The notes under the pieces were generated by a model. The model did no database searches. It worked only from the letters and a program-made list of their open reading frames with translations, and was not told the DNA's origin. Shown here one piece after another: positions 22,576 through 30,779 of a DNA stretch of 33,832 nucleotides (its first letter is position 1; each line of letters starts with the position of its first letter). The stretch is from Candidatus Caldatribacterium sp. Lineage in GTDB: Bacteria > Atribacterota > Atribacteria > Atribacterales > Caldatribacteriaceae. Position numbers and translations under genes: made by a program. The DNA lies in the NCBI GenBank assembly GCA_014359405.1, contig JACIZN010000003.1:1-33832 (forward strand). Reading direction: 5' to 3'.

Positions 22576-23631
22576 CTAAAAGAAAGTTTCAGGGAGTGTA
22601 TCTAAGGTCTCACAACCGTGCTCGGTGATAAGCACCATGTGTTCAAGACGCACGCCACCCCATTCGGGAATGTATATTCCGGGCTCAACAGTCACAACCA
22701 TCCCTGAACGAAGCACAGTCCTACTCCTTGTGTTGAGCTTGGGTTCTTCATGAACATCGATGCCGACTCCATGTCCGAGGCTATGGGTGAAGTACTGTTC
22801 AATTCCCTTCTCTTGAAAGAACTCTCGTACCTTCTGATCCACAAGACCTCCCTCCACTCCCTCGCGAAGGGAGGAGAGGGCAATTTGCTGTGCCTCACGA
22901 AGAACCGAAAGAATTTCTCCGAAGCGGGGGTCTGTAACCTCACCCACCGGGATAACTCTTGTGAGATCCGCACAGTACCCATCGACCCGTACTCCCCAAT
23001 CAATCAGGACCCACTTCCCCTTCTCGACCTTGCAGGAAGTCGGACGGGCATGGGGAAGGGAACTCCGCTTCCCAAAAGCCACAATAGTCGGAAAGGCTAC
23101 CCCTTCACCCCCAAGCTTTCGCATCTCGTACTCAAGTTCAGCGGCAATATCCCTCTCCTCTACTCCTTCCTGGATAAAGGGAAGCACCTTTCGAAAGGCA
23201 TTTTCTGCAATCGCGATGGCCCGTTGAATGATTCTGAGCTCTTCTTCGTCCTTAACAGCACGAAAAGTATACACCGGAGAGGGAGAGAAAGAAACAGGAC
23301 ATCGTTTCTCCTCAAAGCGACGGGCAAAACTCACGCTTGCTGCATCCTCAACGGTGAGACGATCAAAGTGAAGGGAGAAAAAGACATCGCATATAGCTTC
23401 CACCACATCGTGCTCAAATTCTACAATCTCTGCCTCTATGGCAAGCTCCTCACGGCTTTGGATGGCGTACCTCCCATCGCAGAAGAAAAAGGGCTTACCC
23501 TCGGGGGGCACAAGCAAAAACCCCAGTGACCCGCGAAACCCCGAGAGGTAGAAGAGATTCCCCGGGGAGAGAACAAGGAGTGGAGCTTCCAGTGTCTCTT
23601 GCAACCGCTCAAGACGTCTCTTGAACACCAT
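22576..23631 (-). CDS. M24 family Xaa-Pro aminopeptidase
   Basis: Metalloaminopeptidase removing N-terminal residues before proline. 351 residues: an N-terminal creatinase-like domain (LYLSGFRGSLGFLLV) and a C-terminal pita-bread domain with metal ligands in LIDWGVRVDGYCADLTR (two Asp), HSLGHGVGIDVHE (His), VVTVEPGIYIPEWGGVRLEHMVLIT (two Glu). YHTFRAVKDEEE-like and EELRIIQRAIAIAENAF segments are also typical. The gene commonly stands upstream of efp in Firmicutes-like genomes, as here (17-base gap). The ATG overlaps the aroQ stop by 23 bases. Confidence 0.94.
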   Translation of the reverse strand: MVFKRRLERLQETLEAPLLVLSPGNLFYLSGFRGSLGFLLVPPEGKPFFFCDGRYAIQSREELAIEAEIVEFEHDVVEAICDVFFSLHFDRLTVEDAASVSFARRFEEKRCPVSFSPSPVYTFRAVKDEEELRIIQRAIAIAENAFRKVLPFIQEGVEERDIAAELEYEMRKLGGEGVAFPTIVAFGKRSSLPHARPTSCKVEKGKWVLIDWGVRVDGYCADLTRVIPVGEVTDPRFGEILSVLREAQQIALSSLREGVEGGLVDQKVREFFQEKGIEQYFTHSLGHGVGIDVHEEPKLNTRSRTVLRSGMVVTVEPGIYIPEWGGVRLEHMVLITEHGCETLDTLPETFF

Positions 23632-24064
23632 TTCCTCTCCCCCTCAGCACAAAAGCTTCCATCGCCAGAATGTACCCAAAATACCCAAGGCCGGTAATTT
23701 GTCCCCAGCAGACCGGCGCAGTAACCGAATGGTGACGAAACTCTTCCCGAGCGTAAATGTTCGACATATGGACTTCAATAGCTGGAATACCCACCGCTTT
23801 CAGAGCATCCCTTATGGCAATACTGTAGTGAGTATACGCTCCAGGATTAATGATGATTCCATCCCACTTTCCCCGTGCTTCGTGAATCTTGTCAATGATT
23901 GCTCCCTCGTGGTTCGACTGAAAAACCTCTAACTCCATTCCTCGTCGTTTCGCCTCTTCCGCAAGGAGACTGACCAGCTCTTTAAACGAAAGCGTCCCGT
24001 AGATATTCCGCTCTCGTTCTCCAAGAAGATTCAGATTCGGCCCAAGGATGCAAAGGAGTCTCAC
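23609..24064 (-). CDS. aroQ: Type II 3-dehydroquinate dehydratase
   Basis: Third shikimate step: dehydrates 3-dehydroquinate. 151 residues. The N-terminal ILGPNLNLLGERERNIYGTLS contains the catalytic tyrosine, QSNHEGAIIDKIHEA, IINPGAYTHYSIAIRDAL, EVHMSNIYAREEFRHHSV and GLGYFGYILAMEA follow, all diagnostic of the type II (dodecameric) enzyme. The GTG start overlaps the aroB stop (GTGA). It forms a tight aroK-aroB-aroQ set, next to the M24 peptidase and efp, a neighbourhood shared with many Firmicutes. Confidence 0.97.
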   Translation of the reverse strand: MRLLCILGPNLNLLGERERNIYGTLSFKELVSLLAEEAKRRGMELEVFQSNHEGAIIDKIHEARGKWDGIIINPGAYTHYSIAIRDALKAVGIPAIEVHMSNIYAREEFRHHSVTAPVCWGQITGLGYFGYILAMEAFVLRGRGNGVQETS

Positions 24065-25161
24065 ACCTGCACCTCACAGAGTTCTGGAAGAATCTGAAGC
24101 ACCATCTCTTCTTCCACTTCTACCCCTAAAATCGGCTTTCCCGGACACTCAAGAAGGGTAAAGCGCACCTTCCCTCCTCCCTTCTTTTTATCCCTCCGAA
24201 GGGCAGAGAGAAATTCCTCTGCTCCAACTTTTCGAGGAACCCGGAGAGGAAGCCCAAACTCCTCAAGCATCCTCCTCTGCAAATCACACATCTTTTCAGT
24301 ACTCACTCCAATCCTCACCGCCAGGATTGCTTCCCCAAGCATTCCTACACCGACTGCTTCCCCATGACGGAGAACCCCATATCCTGTGGCCTTCTCAAGG
24401 GCATGCCCTATGGTGTGCCCATAATTGAGGACACTTCGTAAACCCTTCTCCTTTTCATCCCTCTCAACAATCCCCTTCTTGTAGGCAATGGCTCTCGCAA
24501 CCGTCTCCTCAAGAACACGCTCTTCTCTTTGCAGGATTTCCCTTCTGTTGGCGAGAAGAAAAGACACGAACTCTTCCCCTTCAAGGAGCGCTGCCTTTAC
24601 CACTTCAGCAAGGCCTTCCCGATACTCCCGCTCCGGAAGGGTAGAGAGAAAGGAAAGGTCCACAAGAACTCCCGAGGGCTGGTAGAAAGTCCCGACGAGA
24701 TTCTTCCCCTCCTCAAGGTTTACTCCCGTTTTCCCGCCTACGGAACTGTCCACCTGAGCAAGAAGGCTTGTGGGGATTTGGTAGTACGCAATGCCCCGAA
24801 GAAATGTCGAGGCCACAAATCCCCCAAGGTCTGTAACCACTCCTCCCCCAAGGGTAAGGAGGAAGGATTTCCGGTCAAGGTCAAGGGCAAGGAGCCTGTG
24901 GTACACTTCTTCAACGGTCTTGAGGTTCTTATGCTCCTCTCCATCAGGGATAGCAATAGTGTCAACAGTATATCCATGACGGGCAAAGAACTCCTGCACC
25001 TTCTCCGCATAAAGTTCCCCCACCCGGTCATTCGTGAGTATGACACCCCGAGGGGAAGGAAAGAGGATACGAGATAGCCACCCATCCCAGGAAAAGAGGG
25101 AGGCATCGATGAGCACTCGGTACGTTCTTCCCTCAGGTAAGGACACCACAATCTCGCGCAC
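24061..25161 (-). CDS. aroB: 3-dehydroquinate synthase
   Basis: Second shikimate step: converts DAHP to 3-dehydroquinate with NAD and a divalent metal. 366 residues. IPDGEEHKNLKTVEEVYHRLL, TLGGGVVTDLGGFVASTFLRGI, PTSLLAQVDSSVGGKTGVN, GLAEVVKAALL, LNYGHTIGHALE (metal His) and HGEAVGVGM are visible. The start is GTG 25161, overlapping the end of aroK by 29 bases, with AGGGAG ten bases upstream. The C-terminal 40 residues (VRFTLLECPGKPILGVEVEEE) are a normal lid region. Confidence 0.97.
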   Translation of the reverse strand: MREIVVSLPEGRTYRVLIDASLFSWDGWLSRILFPSPRGVILTNDRVGELYAEKVQEFFARHGYTVDTIAIPDGEEHKNLKTVEEVYHRLLALDLDRKSFLLTLGGGVVTDLGGFVASTFLRGIAYYQIPTSLLAQVDSSVGGKTGVNLEEGKNLVGTFYQPSGVLVDLSFLSTLPEREYREGLAEVVKAALLEGEEFVSFLLANRREILQREERVLEETVARAIAYKKGIVERDEKEKGLRSVLNYGHTIGHALEKATGYGVLRHGEAVGVGMLGEAILAVRIGVSTEKMCDLQRRMLEEFGLPLRVPRKVGAEEFLSALRRDKKKGGGKVRFTLLECPGKPILGVEVEEEMVLQILPELCEVQV

Positions 25162-25666
25162 GACGGATAATCTCCCTGGCCACTTCCTCTTCGGTCAAGA
25201 AATCCGCATCAATTATAACATGGGCCTTCTCGTAGTAGGGAAGTCTCGCTAAGTAGAGAGCCTCGAGCTCTTCAAAGGTTGCGTACTTCCTGAGGAGGGG
25301 ACGATGCGAACTTCCCCGGATACGTTCAAAAAGAAGGGGGAAGGAAACGCGAAGGAAGACGGTCAGGAAGTGTTCCCAGAGAATGGCCCTATTCCTCTCT
25401 CGCAACGGAAGACCCCCACCGGTGGCAAGGACAAGATTTCGCTCTTTCACCAGTTCCTCAAGGACTTCTGTTTCGAGTTCACGAAAATACTCCTCACCGT
25501 AGCGAGAGAAGATTTCCGGAATGGAAAGACCCACTCGTTCTTCGATGACTCTATCGGTGTCGTAGAACCGCCAGCCGGTTATCTCCGCCACCCTTTGGCC
25601 AACAGTGGTCTTGCCACATCCCATGAAACCAAGAAGGGCGATACCGGAACGCACGGGATTTCTCAA
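25133..25666 (-). CDS. aroK: Shikimate kinase
   Basis: Fifth shikimate step: phosphorylates shikimate. 177 residues. P-loop GFMGCGKTTVG, DTDRVIEERVGLSIPEIFSRYGEEYFRELE (shikimate-binding Asp and Arg), ATGGGLP (shikimate-binding glycines) and RPLL (LID) are all present. The start is a TTG overlapping the lipoprotein stop (TTGA); a GTG at 25654 giving four fewer residues is equally possible, because neither has a good ribosome-binding site. Shikimate kinase next to type IV pilus genes is also seen in Proteobacteria and Deinococcus-Thermus, so this linkage is not unique. Confidence 0.95.
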   Translation of the reverse strand: MRNPVRSGIALLGFMGCGKTTVGQRVAEITGWRFYDTDRVIEERVGLSIPEIFSRYGEEYFRELETEVLEELVKERNLVLATGGGLPLRERNRAILWEHFLTVFLRVSFPLLFERIRGSSHRPLLRKYATFEELEALYLARLPYYEKAHVIIDADFLTEEEVAREIIRRARDCGVLT

Positions 25667-26547
25667 TCAGATTCAGGCTGGCATATTTCTTGCACTTCTT
25701 CCCTCTTGGTGGTTACCGTCAACACGCCCCCGTTGATGTCGTACACCACGGCGACAGCAGCAACGGTATCGCTGAGGCTCACTGGTACGCTCTCCGATAT
25801 AAAGGGCGGCGTTGTATCTACCCCTGCAGGTTCACCGTTGATAGAGAACACCACTTTCGTAACCATTGAAGCATCGTCCACCTTTAGATAGCAGCCAACA
25901 CGGAACGAATCGGAACAACCGGCGGGACAGTCAGCTGCACTACAGAAAAACTCAAGCGTTAAATCAAGCAAGCCCTCGAGTATGCTGAACGCAAGGTCTC
26001 CCCCTCGATACTGCACCGAGTGCGTCGCATAATCCACGCCGTAAAAGGTTACGCTGACAATCACCCCAGGTATGCGGTTTGACCTCAGGTACGCCTCCAC
26101 ATCCGGCGGGAGGAGGTCAACCGACCATTTCACAGAGGCAGTTTCTACACCGGCAACAGAGGCCATGGGCGTTTGGGGAGGAATAACGTCGATACTCATC
26201 TCTATAGTTCTCGTCAACGACGCAAGCGCTGTTCCATCGGTCTTTTTATACTCTAAGCGGCATTGAGTGATTTTCACTCCGACTCTGTTCAAAGGAGTAA
26301 AGGTGAACTCAGTCCATCCCCAGTTTCTCGAGAACCCGGACTCAGAATCAGAATCGGAATCAGACTCAGAATCAGTTTCCCCTGCAAGTGCCGCAGAAAG
26401 AGAGGAAACCTTCACATCTGCGACGATACTCACCTTTGCCTTGGGAAACATAGGGTTATCCGAAAACCAGCCGCAACCTGGGAGAAAAAGAAAGAGCAAA
26501 GCCGCCACGCTCACGGTAAGGCAGATAAAAAATGCTTTCCTCCTCAT
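25663..26547 (-). CDS. Predicted lipoprotein with a Ser-Asp/Glu repeat, function unknown
   Basis: 294 residues. A signal peptide with hydrophobic core (about residues 5-23) ends in FLPGC, a plausible but imperfect lipobox with Pro at -2 and Cys at 25. A short acidic Ser-Asp/Glu repeat at about residues 58-70 is encoded by six hexanucleotide units. The rest is beta-rich and includes a cluster of four cysteines (about residues 200-221). No family recognised. ATG 26547 is preceded by AAGGAGG, a very strong ribosome-binding site. It lies 12 bases downstream of the secretin gene, so a role as secretin pilotin or assembly partner is an attractive guess, but there is no motif to support it. Confidence 0.75.
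   Translation of the reverse strand: MRRKAFFICLTVSVAALLFLFLPGCGWFSDNPMFPKAKVSIVADVKVSSLSAALAGETDSESDSDSDSESGFSRNWGWTEFTFTPLNRVGVKITQCRLEYKKTDGTALASLTRTIEMSIDVIPPQTPMASVAGVETASVKWSVDLLPPDVEAYLRSNRIPGVIVSVTFYGVDYATHSVQYRGGDLAFSILEGLLDLTLEFFCSAADCPAGCSDSFRVGCYLKVDDASMVTKVVFSINGEPAGVDTTPPFISESVPVSLSDTVAAVAVVYDINGGVLTVTTKREEVQEICQPESD
26338..26373 (-). repeat. Six tandem GA(T/G)TC(T/C) hexamers within the lipoprotein gene
   Basis: On the minus strand six consecutive hexamers of the form GAT-TC(T/C) or GAG-TC(T/C) encode alternating Asp/Glu and Ser. Unit changes (GAT to GAG and TCT to TCC) show it is not a perfect repeat. It could change length by whole units without shifting the frame, so any variation would lengthen or shorten a linker rather than switch the gene off. 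The repeat is acidic and flexible, like the Ser-Asp linkers of surface proteins, but very short. Confidence 0.8.
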
Positions 26548-26559
26548 CCTTTCCCTCCT

Positions 26560-28260
26560 TCAGTACTCAATGACGTGAGGAGTGAGGAAGACAACGAGCT
26601 CCGTCTCCTTGTGGGTCCTGCTCCGAAGCACAAAGAGGTTTCCGAGGAGAGGAAGCTCGCTGAGGATAGGTATTCGGGTGATTCTCTCGATGTCCTCGCT
26701 CCGGATGAGCCCGCCGATGACCAAAGTTTCTCCAGGACGTAGCCGGGCAGTGGTATCGGCGTTTTTGACCGTCTTCTGGGGATCCCTAAATGTCAAGCCA
26801 GCCAAAACGTACTCTCGCTCGATATAGGTGCTTACTTCAGGCTTGGCATGGACCACAACTGTCCCTTCCTGGGTAAGAACTGGGGTTACCTTAAGGGTGA
26901 TTCCTACCTCCAGAAATTGCAGTTTTCCCGGAATAAGACGTCCTTCCTCATCGATTTCAAGATCGCGGTAAGGGATAGCGTCTCCCACATGAATTGTTGC
27001 CGTCTTACCACTCAACGTCAGAATCCTCGGGTTTCCAACTAATCTTGCCAGATTCTTCTTCTCCAAGGCTTTAATGGTCATTTCCACAAGGTCCTGGCGC
27101 TCCATAGGTCCACCGATGCTGAGTTCCCCAAAGGTGATTTCCCCTTCCTTTCCACCGACGGTCCAGGTTACCCCAAGGTCTTTTACTTTCTCTCGGTTAA
27201 TTTCCACAAGCTTTGCATCGATCATGACTTGAGGGAGTTTCCGGTCGAGATTAGAGAGCAACTCTGCAACGGCCTTCATTTCCTCTGGAGTTCCCCGAAC
27301 GACGAAAGCTTTCTGGGCAAAGTCGTAGTTCACCCGTTCCTCCTCGGGTATAACAATCTTGAGGAGTTCTCTAACTTTCTTAAGCTGCTCCTCGTCTTCG
27401 TAGATGTTATTGGAAAGGTAAAAAACTCTTGTCTCGAGGGCAACGTCTATTTTCTCCAGAGTTTCCGCAACTTTCTGGAACTCCTCCTCCCTTCCCCGAA
27501 TGACAAGTGCTCGACCTACGGTGTCAACAGCAACGCGTTCTGGTGGAACGATGAGGCTAATAATTTCTTTTGCTTTCTCGGGATCGATGCTCTTCAAGGG
27601 AAACCGCTGAATCCTCAGAAGCCCAAAGTTCTCCTCAAGCTTACTCTTCTCCGCCACGATAATGTTGTTCCCAAAGCGCACCTGACCAAGTCCCTTCATG
27701 GTGAGAATGTATCCCAAGGCCTGCTCGAAAGTGAGGTTTTCAAAGGAGAGCGTAATGGTTCCCTGCACAGAGTCATCCACGACGATATTCACACCTTTAG
27801 CCTTGGCAAGGGCAAGGAGAACGTCCCTGATATCGGCATCTCGGAAACTAAAGGAGAAGCGTTCTTCCTCTCCCGGGGGAGCAAAAGGACCCTTGAAGAG
27901 GACACTCACGAGCCGACCACCTGCTTCGTCGTACACCTCGTAAGGGACAGAATCCTTCAGCTCTATCCAGATTCTGAGGTTCCCCTCCTCTTCCCGGAAG
28001 ATAATACTCTGCACCGGGCCAATATGCATCGGCCGCTCGGCATAGGGAACCCCTCTTTTGGCTCCAGCAATATCAAGGACAACGTGGTACGGATCGGGAG
28101 AGACATCCTCCCAGGTACAGGGAGCGTCGAACTTAAAAGTGAGCTTGATTTCATTGCTATCGGCCCGGAAGAAGAAATCCCGAAGCTCAAGAGGCAATGC
28201 CGGAGAGACGAAAAGGCTAAGGCAAAGGAGCGCAAAAAGTACTATTCTTCGAGCGAAAAT
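26560..28260 (-). CDS. pilQ: Type IV pilus secretin PilQ, predicted ATT start
   Basis: Outer-membrane ring of a type IV pilus or type II secretion system. Domains in order: an AMIN-like N-terminal domain (about residues 22-125), a secretin/TonB short N domain (FRDADIRDVLLALAKAKGVNIVV), two NolW/N1-type repeats (VAVDTVGRALVIRGREEEF and NYDFAQKAFVVRGTPEEM), then the secretin core ending GETLVIGGLIRS and PLLGNLFVLRS. The first in-frame conventional start is TTG 28197, which removes any signal peptide. The frame upstream encodes FARRIVLFALLCLSLFVSPA, a clear signal peptide, but holds no ATG, GTG, TTG or CTG. ATT at 28258-28260 follows GGGGAGGGA by six bases, so I propose an ATT start giving 566 residues. 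It overlaps the PilP-like gene by 19 bases. Confidence 0.88.
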   Translation of the reverse strand: MFARRIVLFALLCLSLFVSPALPLELRDFFFRADSNEIKLTFKFDAPCTWEDVSPDPYHVVLDIAGAKRGVPYAERPMHIGPVQSIIFREEEGNLRIWIELKDSVPYEVYDEAGGRLVSVLFKGPFAPPGEEERFSFSFRDADIRDVLLALAKAKGVNIVVDDSVQGTITLSFENLTFEQALGYILTMKGLGQVRFGNNIIVAEKSKLEENFGLLRIQRFPLKSIDPEKAKEIISLIVPPERVAVDTVGRALVIRGREEEFQKVAETLEKIDVALETRVFYLSNNIYEDEEQLKKVRELLKIVIPEEERVNYDFAQKAFVVRGTPEEMKAVAELLSNLDRKLPQVMIDAKLVEINREKVKDLGVTWTVGGKEGEITFGELSIGGPMERQDLVEMTIKALEKKNLARLVGNPRILTLSGKTATIHVGDAIPYRDLEIDEEGRLIPGKLQFLEVGITLKVTPVLTQEGTVVVHAKPEVSTYIEREYVLAGLTFRDPQKTVKNADTTARLRPGETLVIGGLIRSEDIERITRIPILSELPLLGNLFVLRSRTHKETELVVFLTPHVIEY

Positions 28261-28745
28261 ACGAATTCCCTCCCCTGATATGTAAGCACAACTTGCTTTT
28301 TGTCTACTTTAACCAACCTGAGCTCCCCTGACAAGGGCTTTTCAGGTGTGAGGAAGAAAATTTCCCCGTCAACCTCCACTACGACAACCTGATTTTTGGG
28401 AGACAGAACAACACCCTTGATGGTAATAGTGGGAAATACCTCCTCCTCAGGAACTCCGGAAGAGACCACCACCTCTTCTCCTCCAAAGGCTGAAGGAGCT
28501 TCTTCAAAAACAAAGATGTCTCGCAGGTTCGCAATCTCTTCCTCCCCAAGAGGGGCGAGAAAAATTTCCTTTTGGGTGACTTCGGGAGATTCGGGGAGAG
28601 AAAAAACAAGTCCCCTTGCCCCTGGGTTTTCCGGAACAGGCAAGGAAGACGCCTGGAGCACTTCAACAAGACGGAGGCTCCAAAAACCAAGAACCCCAAC
28701 CGCAGAAGCCAGAGCTATAATGAAAAACACATCCCTTCCCTTCAT
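28242..28745 (-). CDS. pilP: PilP/GspC-like inner-membrane pilus protein
   Basis: 167 residues. An N-terminal membrane helix (about residues 7-28) is followed by a low-complexity periplasmic linker and a C-terminal beta domain (about 105-167) with the GspC/PilP-type pattern ITIKGVVLSPKNQVVVVEVDGEIFFL and a terminal QVVLTYQGREFVF strand. This domain in relatives contacts the secretin N-domains. It lacks the lipoprotein signal of Proteobacterial PilP, so it is anchored by a helix as in GspC. The ATG overlaps the PilO stop (ATGA), and the gene overlaps the secretin start. Identity as PilP rests on position and pattern. Confidence 0.75.
   Translation of the reverse strand: MKGRDVFFIIALASAVGVLGFWSLRLVEVLQASSLPVPENPGARGLVFSLPESPEVTQKEIFLAPLGEEEIANLRDIFVFEEAPSAFGGEEVVVSSGVPEEEVFPTITIKGVVLSPKNQVVVVEVDGEIFFLTPEKPLSGELRLVKVDKKQVVLTYQGREFVFSLEE
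28267..28275 (-). promoter_or_regulatory. Strong ribosome-binding site of the secretin ATT start
   Basis: On the minus strand a GGGGAGGGA element ends six bases before the ATT codon at 28258-28260. It is the strongest ribosome-binding-like sequence near the beginning of the secretin frame and sits correctly for ATT, not for TTG 28197, where it would be some 70 bases too far. It lies in the last codons of the PilP-like gene. Confidence 0.6.
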
Positions 28746-29275
28746 TTTTTCTTCTGCCCCCCGAGGAGATAGGTGGAAAGGGAGAAGTCCACTCGGAAAG
28801 CTTCCTGCTCACTCTGGAAAGAAAACCCCTGGACCTGGATGAGACGAGGAGACTGACGGAGGTAGTTGAGGAAGGAAAGAAAGCTGTGGAAAGAGGTTCG
28901 AACCGAACCAGAGAAGGGTATTTCCGTGTAGCCTTCTTGGGGCTGCAACGGCTCGGGTTTCAAAGAGAGGAGTTCAAGAGAGGAAAGGAAGGCAGCGTCT
29001 TCGACGATGATGAGGAGGTCCGGAATGTCCTTCTCCTCGGGGAGACGGCGCGAAAGAACCTGTACAAGGCTCTCGAGATCCTCGAGTTTTTTCTCCAGCC
29101 TCCGCAGCTCTGCCACTCTCTTCTCGAGAGCAGTCACCTCCTGGTGGAGCCTCTTCCTCTCTTCCTCGAGGCTTCGAAACCGGTCTTGCAGGGGAAAGAG
29201 TGCAAAGTACAGAAAACCAAAGAGGCAACCTGTCCAGAGGAGGAGGTATACTGCCCAGTGGTTTTGGATTCTCAT
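28742..29275 (-). CDS. pilO: PilO-like pilus assembly protein
   Basis: 177 residues: a single N-terminal membrane helix (about residues 8-28), a coiled coil with heptad Leu/Glu/Lys (about 33-75), then a ferredoxin-like periplasmic domain (about 80-170) with a PDLLIIVEDAA segment and VRTSFHSFLSFLNYLRQSPRLIQV, the usual PilO pattern. PilO pairs with PilN to form the inner-membrane platform. The ATG overlaps the pilN stop (ATGA). Sequence is divergent, so PilO is a structural and positional call. Confidence 0.85.
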   Translation of the reverse strand: MRIQNHWAVYLLLWTGCLFGFLYFALFPLQDRFRSLEEERKRLHQEVTALEKRVAELRRLEKKLEDLESLVQVLSRRLPEEKDIPDLLIIVEDAAFLSSLELLSLKPEPLQPQEGYTEIPFSGSVRTSFHSFLSFLNYLRQSPRLIQVQGFSFQSEQEAFRVDFSLSTYLLGGQKKK

Positions 29276-29826
29276 CGACCCTTCAGCTCCAGCATCAGGC
29301 CAAACTCATAGAGATTGTCTCTGCCAAGAGCAAGCGAGGTGAACTCCACATTTGCAAAAAGTTCCGAGTGCTGGGAAAGACCGCTTATGAATTCTGCAAT
29401 GCTTGCCACGGTCCTTGCCCGACCCCGACACTCAACCTTCTCCGAAGAGCAACGGATTTCCGAAAGAGCGAGGTCAGAAGGCATGTTTTCCTCAAGAACC
29501 ACAAAGAACCGGAGCCAATCCTGTTCTCTCTTGACAAGCGACTCAAGGAGATGAACCCGTTCCTCAACCCGGGCAACCTCCTCCTGAACCTTCCTGAGTC
29601 TCTGCTCCTCTTCTCGAAGGCGAGCTACCTGAAGCTGCAGTGTTCCAACCTCCTGACTGAGGGCTTCAACCCGTATGCTCAAAAGGCCATAGGAAAAAAG
29701 GTAGAAAGATGAGAACACCAGTAGCACAATGACGAAAAAGAGCCGAATCCAATTTGGAGTCCTTCGAGCAACGTACTTTTTGGGAAGGAGATTGAGGGCA
29801 ACTCGATAGGGGACTCTCACTTCCAT
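29272..29826 (-). CDS. pilN: PilN-like pilus assembly protein
   Basis: 184 residues. A short cytoplasmic N-terminus with YRVALNLLPKKY resembles the PilN INLLP motif that binds PilM; then one membrane helix (about residues 26-48), a coiled coil (about 52-100) and a periplasmic domain with LSEIRCSSEKVECRGRARTVASIAEFISGLSQ, the Fimbrial assembly (PilN) pattern. The ATG overlaps the pilM stop region by ten bases. Both the binding motif and the neighbouring PilM support the assignment. Confidence 0.9.
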   Translation of the reverse strand: MEVRVPYRVALNLLPKKYVARRTPNWIRLFFVIVLLVFSSFYLFSYGLLSIRVEALSQEVGTLQLQVARLREEEQRLRKVQEEVARVEERVHLLESLVKREQDWLRFFVVLEENMPSDLALSEIRCSSEKVECRGRARTVASIAEFISGLSQHSELFANVEFTSLALGRDNLYEFGLMLELKGR

Positions 29827-30779
29827 AGCGATGCTCCCACCGCTGCAAGAAATCGCTCTGAAGGGATTGACTCCTTGCCTTCAAGAAAAAGTGGTCGCAA
29901 CGGTTGAAAGGTTAGAGAAAGCCCCTCGCTCAGGTAGTCTCGAAGGGGTTTACACAGCGCTCCGCCACCTGAAAGGAAAATCTTCTCGAGTAAGCGAGAC
30001 CCAAACTCTGCCTGGAAAAAGGTGAAGGAACGCTTGAGTTCGAGAAAGAGATCCTGTGAAGCTAAGGGTACAGCCTCCTCAAGTTGATACGGAGCTTCGC
30101 TTCGGCGGAGAATTTCAAGCGTTTCCACTGGAGAAAGATGGAATTTCTTCTGGAGAACATCCCAGATTTTTCGCATACCCCAACCAAAATTCCGGGAAAA
30201 GAGAACGTTCTGGTCCCCGAAGCAAACGATTGTGGTTTTCTCAAAGCCCACATCAACCAAGGTGAAAGCAACTTCAAAAAGTTCCGGATGAAGGCTTAGG
30301 AAACCCTTTGTGAGGCTCATAACATGGGGCTCTACGGCTTCTACCCATATCCCGGCCCGGGCAAAAGTGTCCACGTACGCCTCTACAGCAGGTGAAGGAA
30401 CGGCGGCAAAGAGCACATCCATACTCCCATTGTCTCTTTTGAGGATGCTCCAGCTCACCTGGAAACTCTCCTCTCCAGGGATAAGAGAATGGGCTTCCCA
30501 CTGAATTGCGTTTTCAAGCTCTTCAGGAGACATTTCGGGGAAATTCATCCGCTGCAAGACCATCTGAGGATAGGAAAAGGAGAACACTGCCTCTTTTGGG
30601 AGGCGGTTCCGCTGAAGGAAAAGGCGAACATCCGATGGCGAAAATGCAGGATTCTCCGCTTCTCCTGTAAAGATGACAAGCTCTCCAACCTTTTCAATCG
30701 TAAAGCTCGAACCTTGCCGCTCACTCAGGCAAAATTTCAGGGAGTAAGAACCGGTGTCAATACCAAGCACGCTCTTCAC
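29817..30779 (-). CDS. pilM: PilM actin-like pilus assembly ATPase
   Basis: Cytoplasmic actin-fold protein that binds the PilN tail. 320 residues: GIDTGSYSLKF phosphate-1 motif at the N-terminus, LPKEAVFSFSY, MSPEELENAIQWEAHSLIP (typical PilM), VEAVEPHVMSLTKGF, TLVDVGFEKTTIVCF phosphate-2 motif and FLSGGGALCKPLRDYLSEGL adenosine motif. The start is a GTG immediately after the stop of the preceding pilin-like gene. The ribosome-binding site is poor, and translational coupling is likely. PilM-N-O-P-Q appears in canonical order. Confidence 0.94.
   Translation of the reverse strand: MKSVLGIDTGSYSLKFCLSERQGSSFTIEKVGELVIFTGEAENPAFSPSDVRLFLQRNRLPKEAVFSFSYPQMVLQRMNFPEMSPEELENAIQWEAHSLIPGEESFQVSWSILKRDNGSMDVLFAAVPSPAVEAYVDTFARAGIWVEAVEPHVMSLTKGFLSLHPELFEVAFTLVDVGFEKTTIVCFGDQNVLFSRNFGWGMRKIWDVLQKKFHLSPVETLEILRRSEAPYQLEEAVPLASQDLFLELKRSFTFFQAEFGSRLLEKIFLSGGGALCKPLRDYLSEGLSLTFQPLRPLFLEGKESIPSERFLAAVGASLWK

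Follow-up and report, generated by a model that had tools for sequence, protein, structure and literature searches.

The PilQ-type secretin gene of Caldatribacterium and its relatives very probably starts at a conserved AUU codon

To our knowledge, few bacterial genes beyond infC retain AUU, AUC or AUA start codons over long evolutionary time, and for pcnB we know of no codon imposed by an overlapping gene. The infC gene, which encodes initiation factor IF3, starts with AUU in Escherichia coli, with AUC in Streptomyces and with AUA in Staphylococcus aureus. According to Binns and Masters (2002), as cited in PMC13009471, pcnB of E. coli has an AUU start and is translationally limited; as described in PMC13009471, the S. 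aureus genes ccpN (AUA) and cvfC1 (AUU) have conserved starts, strong Shine-Dalgarno (SD) sequences and a lowered yield. In Streptomyces, sigR starts with GTC in 32 of 34 species and with GTT in two, and its repression by IF3 was shown (PMC5472188). Here we describe a gene from the Atribacterota, a phylum with cultured members (PMC11227167), that, judging from the conservation of its start region, is a new addition to this class of conserved non-canonical start codons. A literature search for ATT-started secretins and for start codons in Atribacterota found no earlier report.

The secretin gene and the pil operon

The window, that is, the whole stretch of 33,832 nucleotides analyzed here, belongs to a draft genome of Candidatus Caldatribacterium sp. 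(195 contigs, 97% complete; contig JACIZN010000003.1). The features discussed below are the following:

29817..30779, minus strand: pilM (Pfam PF11104, 2.6e-20)
29272..29826, minus strand: pilN (Pfam PF05137, 1.9e-7)
28742..29275, minus strand: pilO (Pfam PF04350, 9.7e-22)
28242..28745, minus strand: pilP-like gene taken from the open reading frame list and placed after pilMNO, with an ATG start and a TAG stop at 28244-28242
28267..28275, minus strand: SD sequence GGGGAGGGA, containing GGAGGGA in all 18 species compared
28258..28260, minus strand: putative ATT start codon, identical in 18 of 18 order-level species, its three bases unchanged
26560..28260, minus strand: PilQ-type secretin coding sequence, 566 codons counted from the ATT plus a stop, identified by its open frame and by Pfam and PDB matches
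28189..28260, minus strand: predicted signal peptide of about 24 residues with a basic end (FARR), a hydrophobic core and an SPA-type end; its limit was placed by eye and is approximate

The open secretin frame spans positions 26560-28311 of the minus strand, running from a TAA (28311-28309) through SRQKASCAYISGEG-I-R-I-FARRIVLFALLCLSLFVSPALPLELRDFF to a stop at 26560-26562. Its product matches the Pfam models Secretin (4e-38), STN (N0/STN), Secretin_N and AMIN, and among PDB structures it is closest to PilQ chains (about 1e-38). The pilM, pilN and pilO genes adjoin this locus, as in a pilMNOPQ operon. The product of the pilP-like gene (hereafter pilP) has a fitting size, a fitting place and an N-terminal hydrophobic segment, with no Pfam match; the gene aligns with those of relatives, including the one from the sister class, and is conserved within the phylum. 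In the window, pilMNOPQ is followed by aroK, aroB and aroQ-like genes identified by eye (23609-30779 for the whole array), a neighborhood matching the pilMNOPQ-aroKB arrangement of Proteobacteria. Directly after the secretin gene lies a gene (25663-26547) for a putative lipoprotein that has an acidic DSESDSDSDSESG run and matches no Pfam model.

A PilQ secretin must be exported, and the secretin frame holds no ATG, GTG, TTG or CTG between the upstream TAA and the TTG at 28197-28195. The earlier note had claimed as much, and had added that this TTG falls after the signal peptide and that ATT 28258-28260 sits six bases past a strong SD; reading of the minus strand and its translation bore out all three points. 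Two further near-cognate codons occur in the frame, ATT 28266-28264 and ATA 28245-28243. The distance from GGAGG is 8 nt for ATT 28260, which is normal, and 2 nt for ATT 28266. A standard anti-SD sequence, GGATCACCTCCTTT, was found in the genome, and the secretin layout, GGGAGG-GAATTCGT-ATT, is nearly the same as that of infC in this genome, GGGAGG-CGATTCGT-ATC. RNA folding around the secretin start revealed no special structure (z = 0.54). Gene finders that accept only ATG, GTG and TTG would truncate the secretin throughout the order and lose its signal peptide, thereby hiding the protein from export predictions.

Conservation of the start region across the order

We compared the start region in 18 species of the same order, comprising Caldatribacterium and its relatives from four families of Atribacterota, all of which hold this region. 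Of the 25 genomes of the order, 18 yielded the secretin gene, among them every one of the 12 with at least 90% completeness and at most 5% contamination, and secretin identity ranges from 56 to 100% among the 18 species. In one of the genomes (G009, contig 158; locus L015) the secretin frame runs on for about 320 codons past the usual end, giving 891 codons, and in the draft genome G002 (loci L010 and L037) a shift around residue 474-482 interrupts it. Genome G009 also carries a second, partial pil operon (contig 37, L116) with the same ATT.

The earlier note had proposed a comparison with related genomes, and the outcome is uniform: GGAGGGA-N6-ATT is found at the same place in 18 of 18 species. 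Shared ancestry means that the 18 species are not independent cases, and for this reason a count of changes was also made on a tree. The ATT and positions -14 to -7, which cover the SD, show zero inferred changes, and the six spacer bases between them show 3, 4, 1, 5, 6 and 6. An unchanging SD and ATT beside a changing spacer is, on comparative grounds, the mark of a selected translation start, on top of any protein constraint. Outside the order, in the sister class, the secretin starts with an ATG at a more downstream site, where a longer PilP tail ends.

These comparisons bear directly on the other ways of reading the locus. A sequencing or assembly error that turned a true ATG into ATT might be entertained for a draft of 195 contigs, and the earlier note had listed it as an alternative; the same ATT is nevertheless present in 18 separately assembled species, two of them (G014 and G017) represented by single-contig genomes, so that this explanation is excluded for practical purposes and we consider it vanishingly improbable. 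Translation from the conventional downstream TTG 28197, yielding a protein without a signal peptide, would use the first codon acceptable to a standard gene finder. This TTG (28195..28197, minus strand) is unconserved and absent in many relatives, however, and in one of them (G024, locus L022) the first 60 codons contain no ATG, GTG, TTG or CTG at all. Upstream of it, the signal-peptide sequence varies among relatives and the basic and hydrophobic pattern is retained, as would be expected of a protein that needs export. A start at TTG is thus extremely unlikely.

The two other near-cognate codons fare no better. ATA 28243..28245 (minus strand), which the earlier note had offered as another possible start, is excluded since it is missing at that place in several relatives (GTA in L007, for example), and ATT 28264..28266 (minus strand), only 2 nt from GGAGG, is replaced by GTT, ACT, GCT or AAT in relatives. 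A separate start might also be dispensed with altogether if a -1 frameshift on pilP produced a PilP-secretin fusion; the secretin frame is indeed -1 relative to pilP, and both frames are open across the overlap. Such a fusion, however, would require neither the ATT nor an invariant SD spacing and would bury the signal peptide in the middle of the protein, and no consistent slippery site is seen, the bases before GGG being CAG, GAT or AAA. We regard the fusion as highly unlikely. With ATT present in 18 of 18 species at a fixed SD spacing and its rivals unconserved, the secretin is very probably translated from ATT 28260-28258.

The overlapping pilP gene and the role of the AUU

The final 19 nt of pilP (28242-28260), which begin with the ATT and end with the TAG stop, overlap the secretin gene; the overlap measures 19 nt in 15 of the 18 species and 13 nt in the other three. 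Conservation of the ATT could in principle reflect the PilP protein, and codon choice in pilP offers a separate view. Six different residues (V, T, A, R, S and Q) occur at the pilP codon contributing the A of ATT, with at least 8 inferred amino-acid changes on the tree, and its third base is always A. Among 64 pilP columns with at least three residues, no other keeps its third base constant. The following codon, which supplies the TT, is TTT in 7 species and TTA in 11, never TTC, CTN or TTG, whereas leucine in a similar F/L column, two codons further along, is encoded by CTC, CTG or CTT and never by TTA. In the same secretin genes, TTA accounts for 2-39% of leucine codons, ACA for 3-24% of threonine codons and GTA for 5-38% of valine codons. 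Such a choice of pilP codons makes sense only if the ATT itself is under selection. Together with the order-wide conservation, it lends strong support to the central claim of the earlier note, initiation at ATT 28258-28260, and it means that the case for the secretin AUU, which is preserved across four families, can also be made from the codons used in the overlapping gene.

How such a start might work can be outlined from the layout. The AUU (28260-28258) is presumably decoded by initiator fMet-tRNA, with the strong SD, embedded in GRE codons of the upstream pilP, guiding the ribosome to it. Because the AUU lies within the last pilP codons, ribosomes that end pilP at TAG 28244-28242, roughly a dozen bases beyond the ATT, would be within reach of the secretin start and could re-initiate at the SD and AUU. 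Secretin synthesis would then be coupled to that of PilP through a weak start. IF3 probably discriminates against the AUU, the AUC or AUA start of infC in this order being indirect support, and the yield of secretin might thereby be held low and track initiation-factor status; that IF3 would set this yield is suggested by analogy with infC, sigR, cvfC1 and ccpN. By the same analogies, a weak start holding the secretin below PilMNOP is plausible, and secretin dosage matters for the cell envelope. We judge the chances that the AUU has an IF3-limited, low-yield role to be evenly balanced.

An alternative accepts the AUU start and denies it any regulatory role. With the SD embedded in pilP, the start would have fallen on a codon bound to phenylalanine or leucine (TTN), where an NTG start would demand cysteine or tryptophan in PilP; ATT would simply be the best start that the site allows, and good enough. 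The PilP residue at this site is indeed F or L in 18 of 18 species and leucine in the sister class, where the ATG start of the secretin lies downstream, at the end of the longer PilP tail. On the other hand, neighboring secretin codons could gain an ATG at the price of one cysteine in the highly variable PilP columns 147 and 149, which is not seen in any of the 18 species. Constraint of this kind explains an ATT at the site and explains less well why the start never shifted by one codon. We consider it quite possible that constraint is the whole explanation, while stopping short of calling it likely; constraint and regulation are also compatible and can act together.

Other non-canonical starts and comparison with known systems

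Non-canonical starts in the order were surveyed in 400 kb from each of the single-contig genomes G014 and G017, which belong to different families, by examining 161 orthologous pairs for SD-supported starts. In this sample of each genome, only infC, pnp and the secretin gene have non-canonical starts in both. Non-canonical starts are thus rare here, yet the secretin is not the sole case. Within the order, infC starts with ATC or ATA (L053, L047-L069). The pnp gene, which encodes polynucleotide phosphorylase, has an ATA after an AGGAGG-type site in most genera and species (L125-L146 and L149; for example, L083:12965), and GTG is found at the homologous position in the genus of the window, which supports ATA as the start. 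This ATA is probably a second conserved non-canonical start. In one genus, g8, TTG or GTG codons occur close by, and pnp may start there at ATA or at one of them. In the same genus, a cvpA-like gene (L162, L167, L168, L170, L171 and L172) shows AGGAGG-ATTNTA followed by ATC or ATT, and its first 30 or so codons include no canonical start; in other genera the start is TTG or ATG. It is conceivable, if rather unlikely, that infC, pnp and the secretin gene, with cvpA in one genus, make up a small near-cognate set whose translation moves jointly with IF3 or ribosome status. If true, this would tie pilus assembly and RNA decay to the stringency of translation initiation.

Among the known systems, infC resembles the secretin gene in that its near-cognate start is conserved and preceded by a strong SD, and the order's own infC is closely similar in layout. 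Unlike infC, which encodes the codon-sensing factor, the secretin is a structural part of the pilus and its start lies inside an upstream gene. In pcnB, an AUU start again occurs in a gene unrelated to IF3, although the gene and the lineage are different. The sigR gene shares a lineage-wide conserved non-canonical start and a strong SD with the secretin gene; it differs in codon and function, and its case was demonstrated experimentally, whereas that of the secretin is comparative (PMC5472188). The ccpN and cvfC1 genes encode a regulator and a small protein in Firmicutes, and the excerpt of PMC13009471 describes no embedding of their starts in a preceding gene, in contrast to the secretin. By these analogies, the secretin start is best read as a weak AUU start, probably coupled to pilP, in the class of infC, pcnB, sigR and ccpN.
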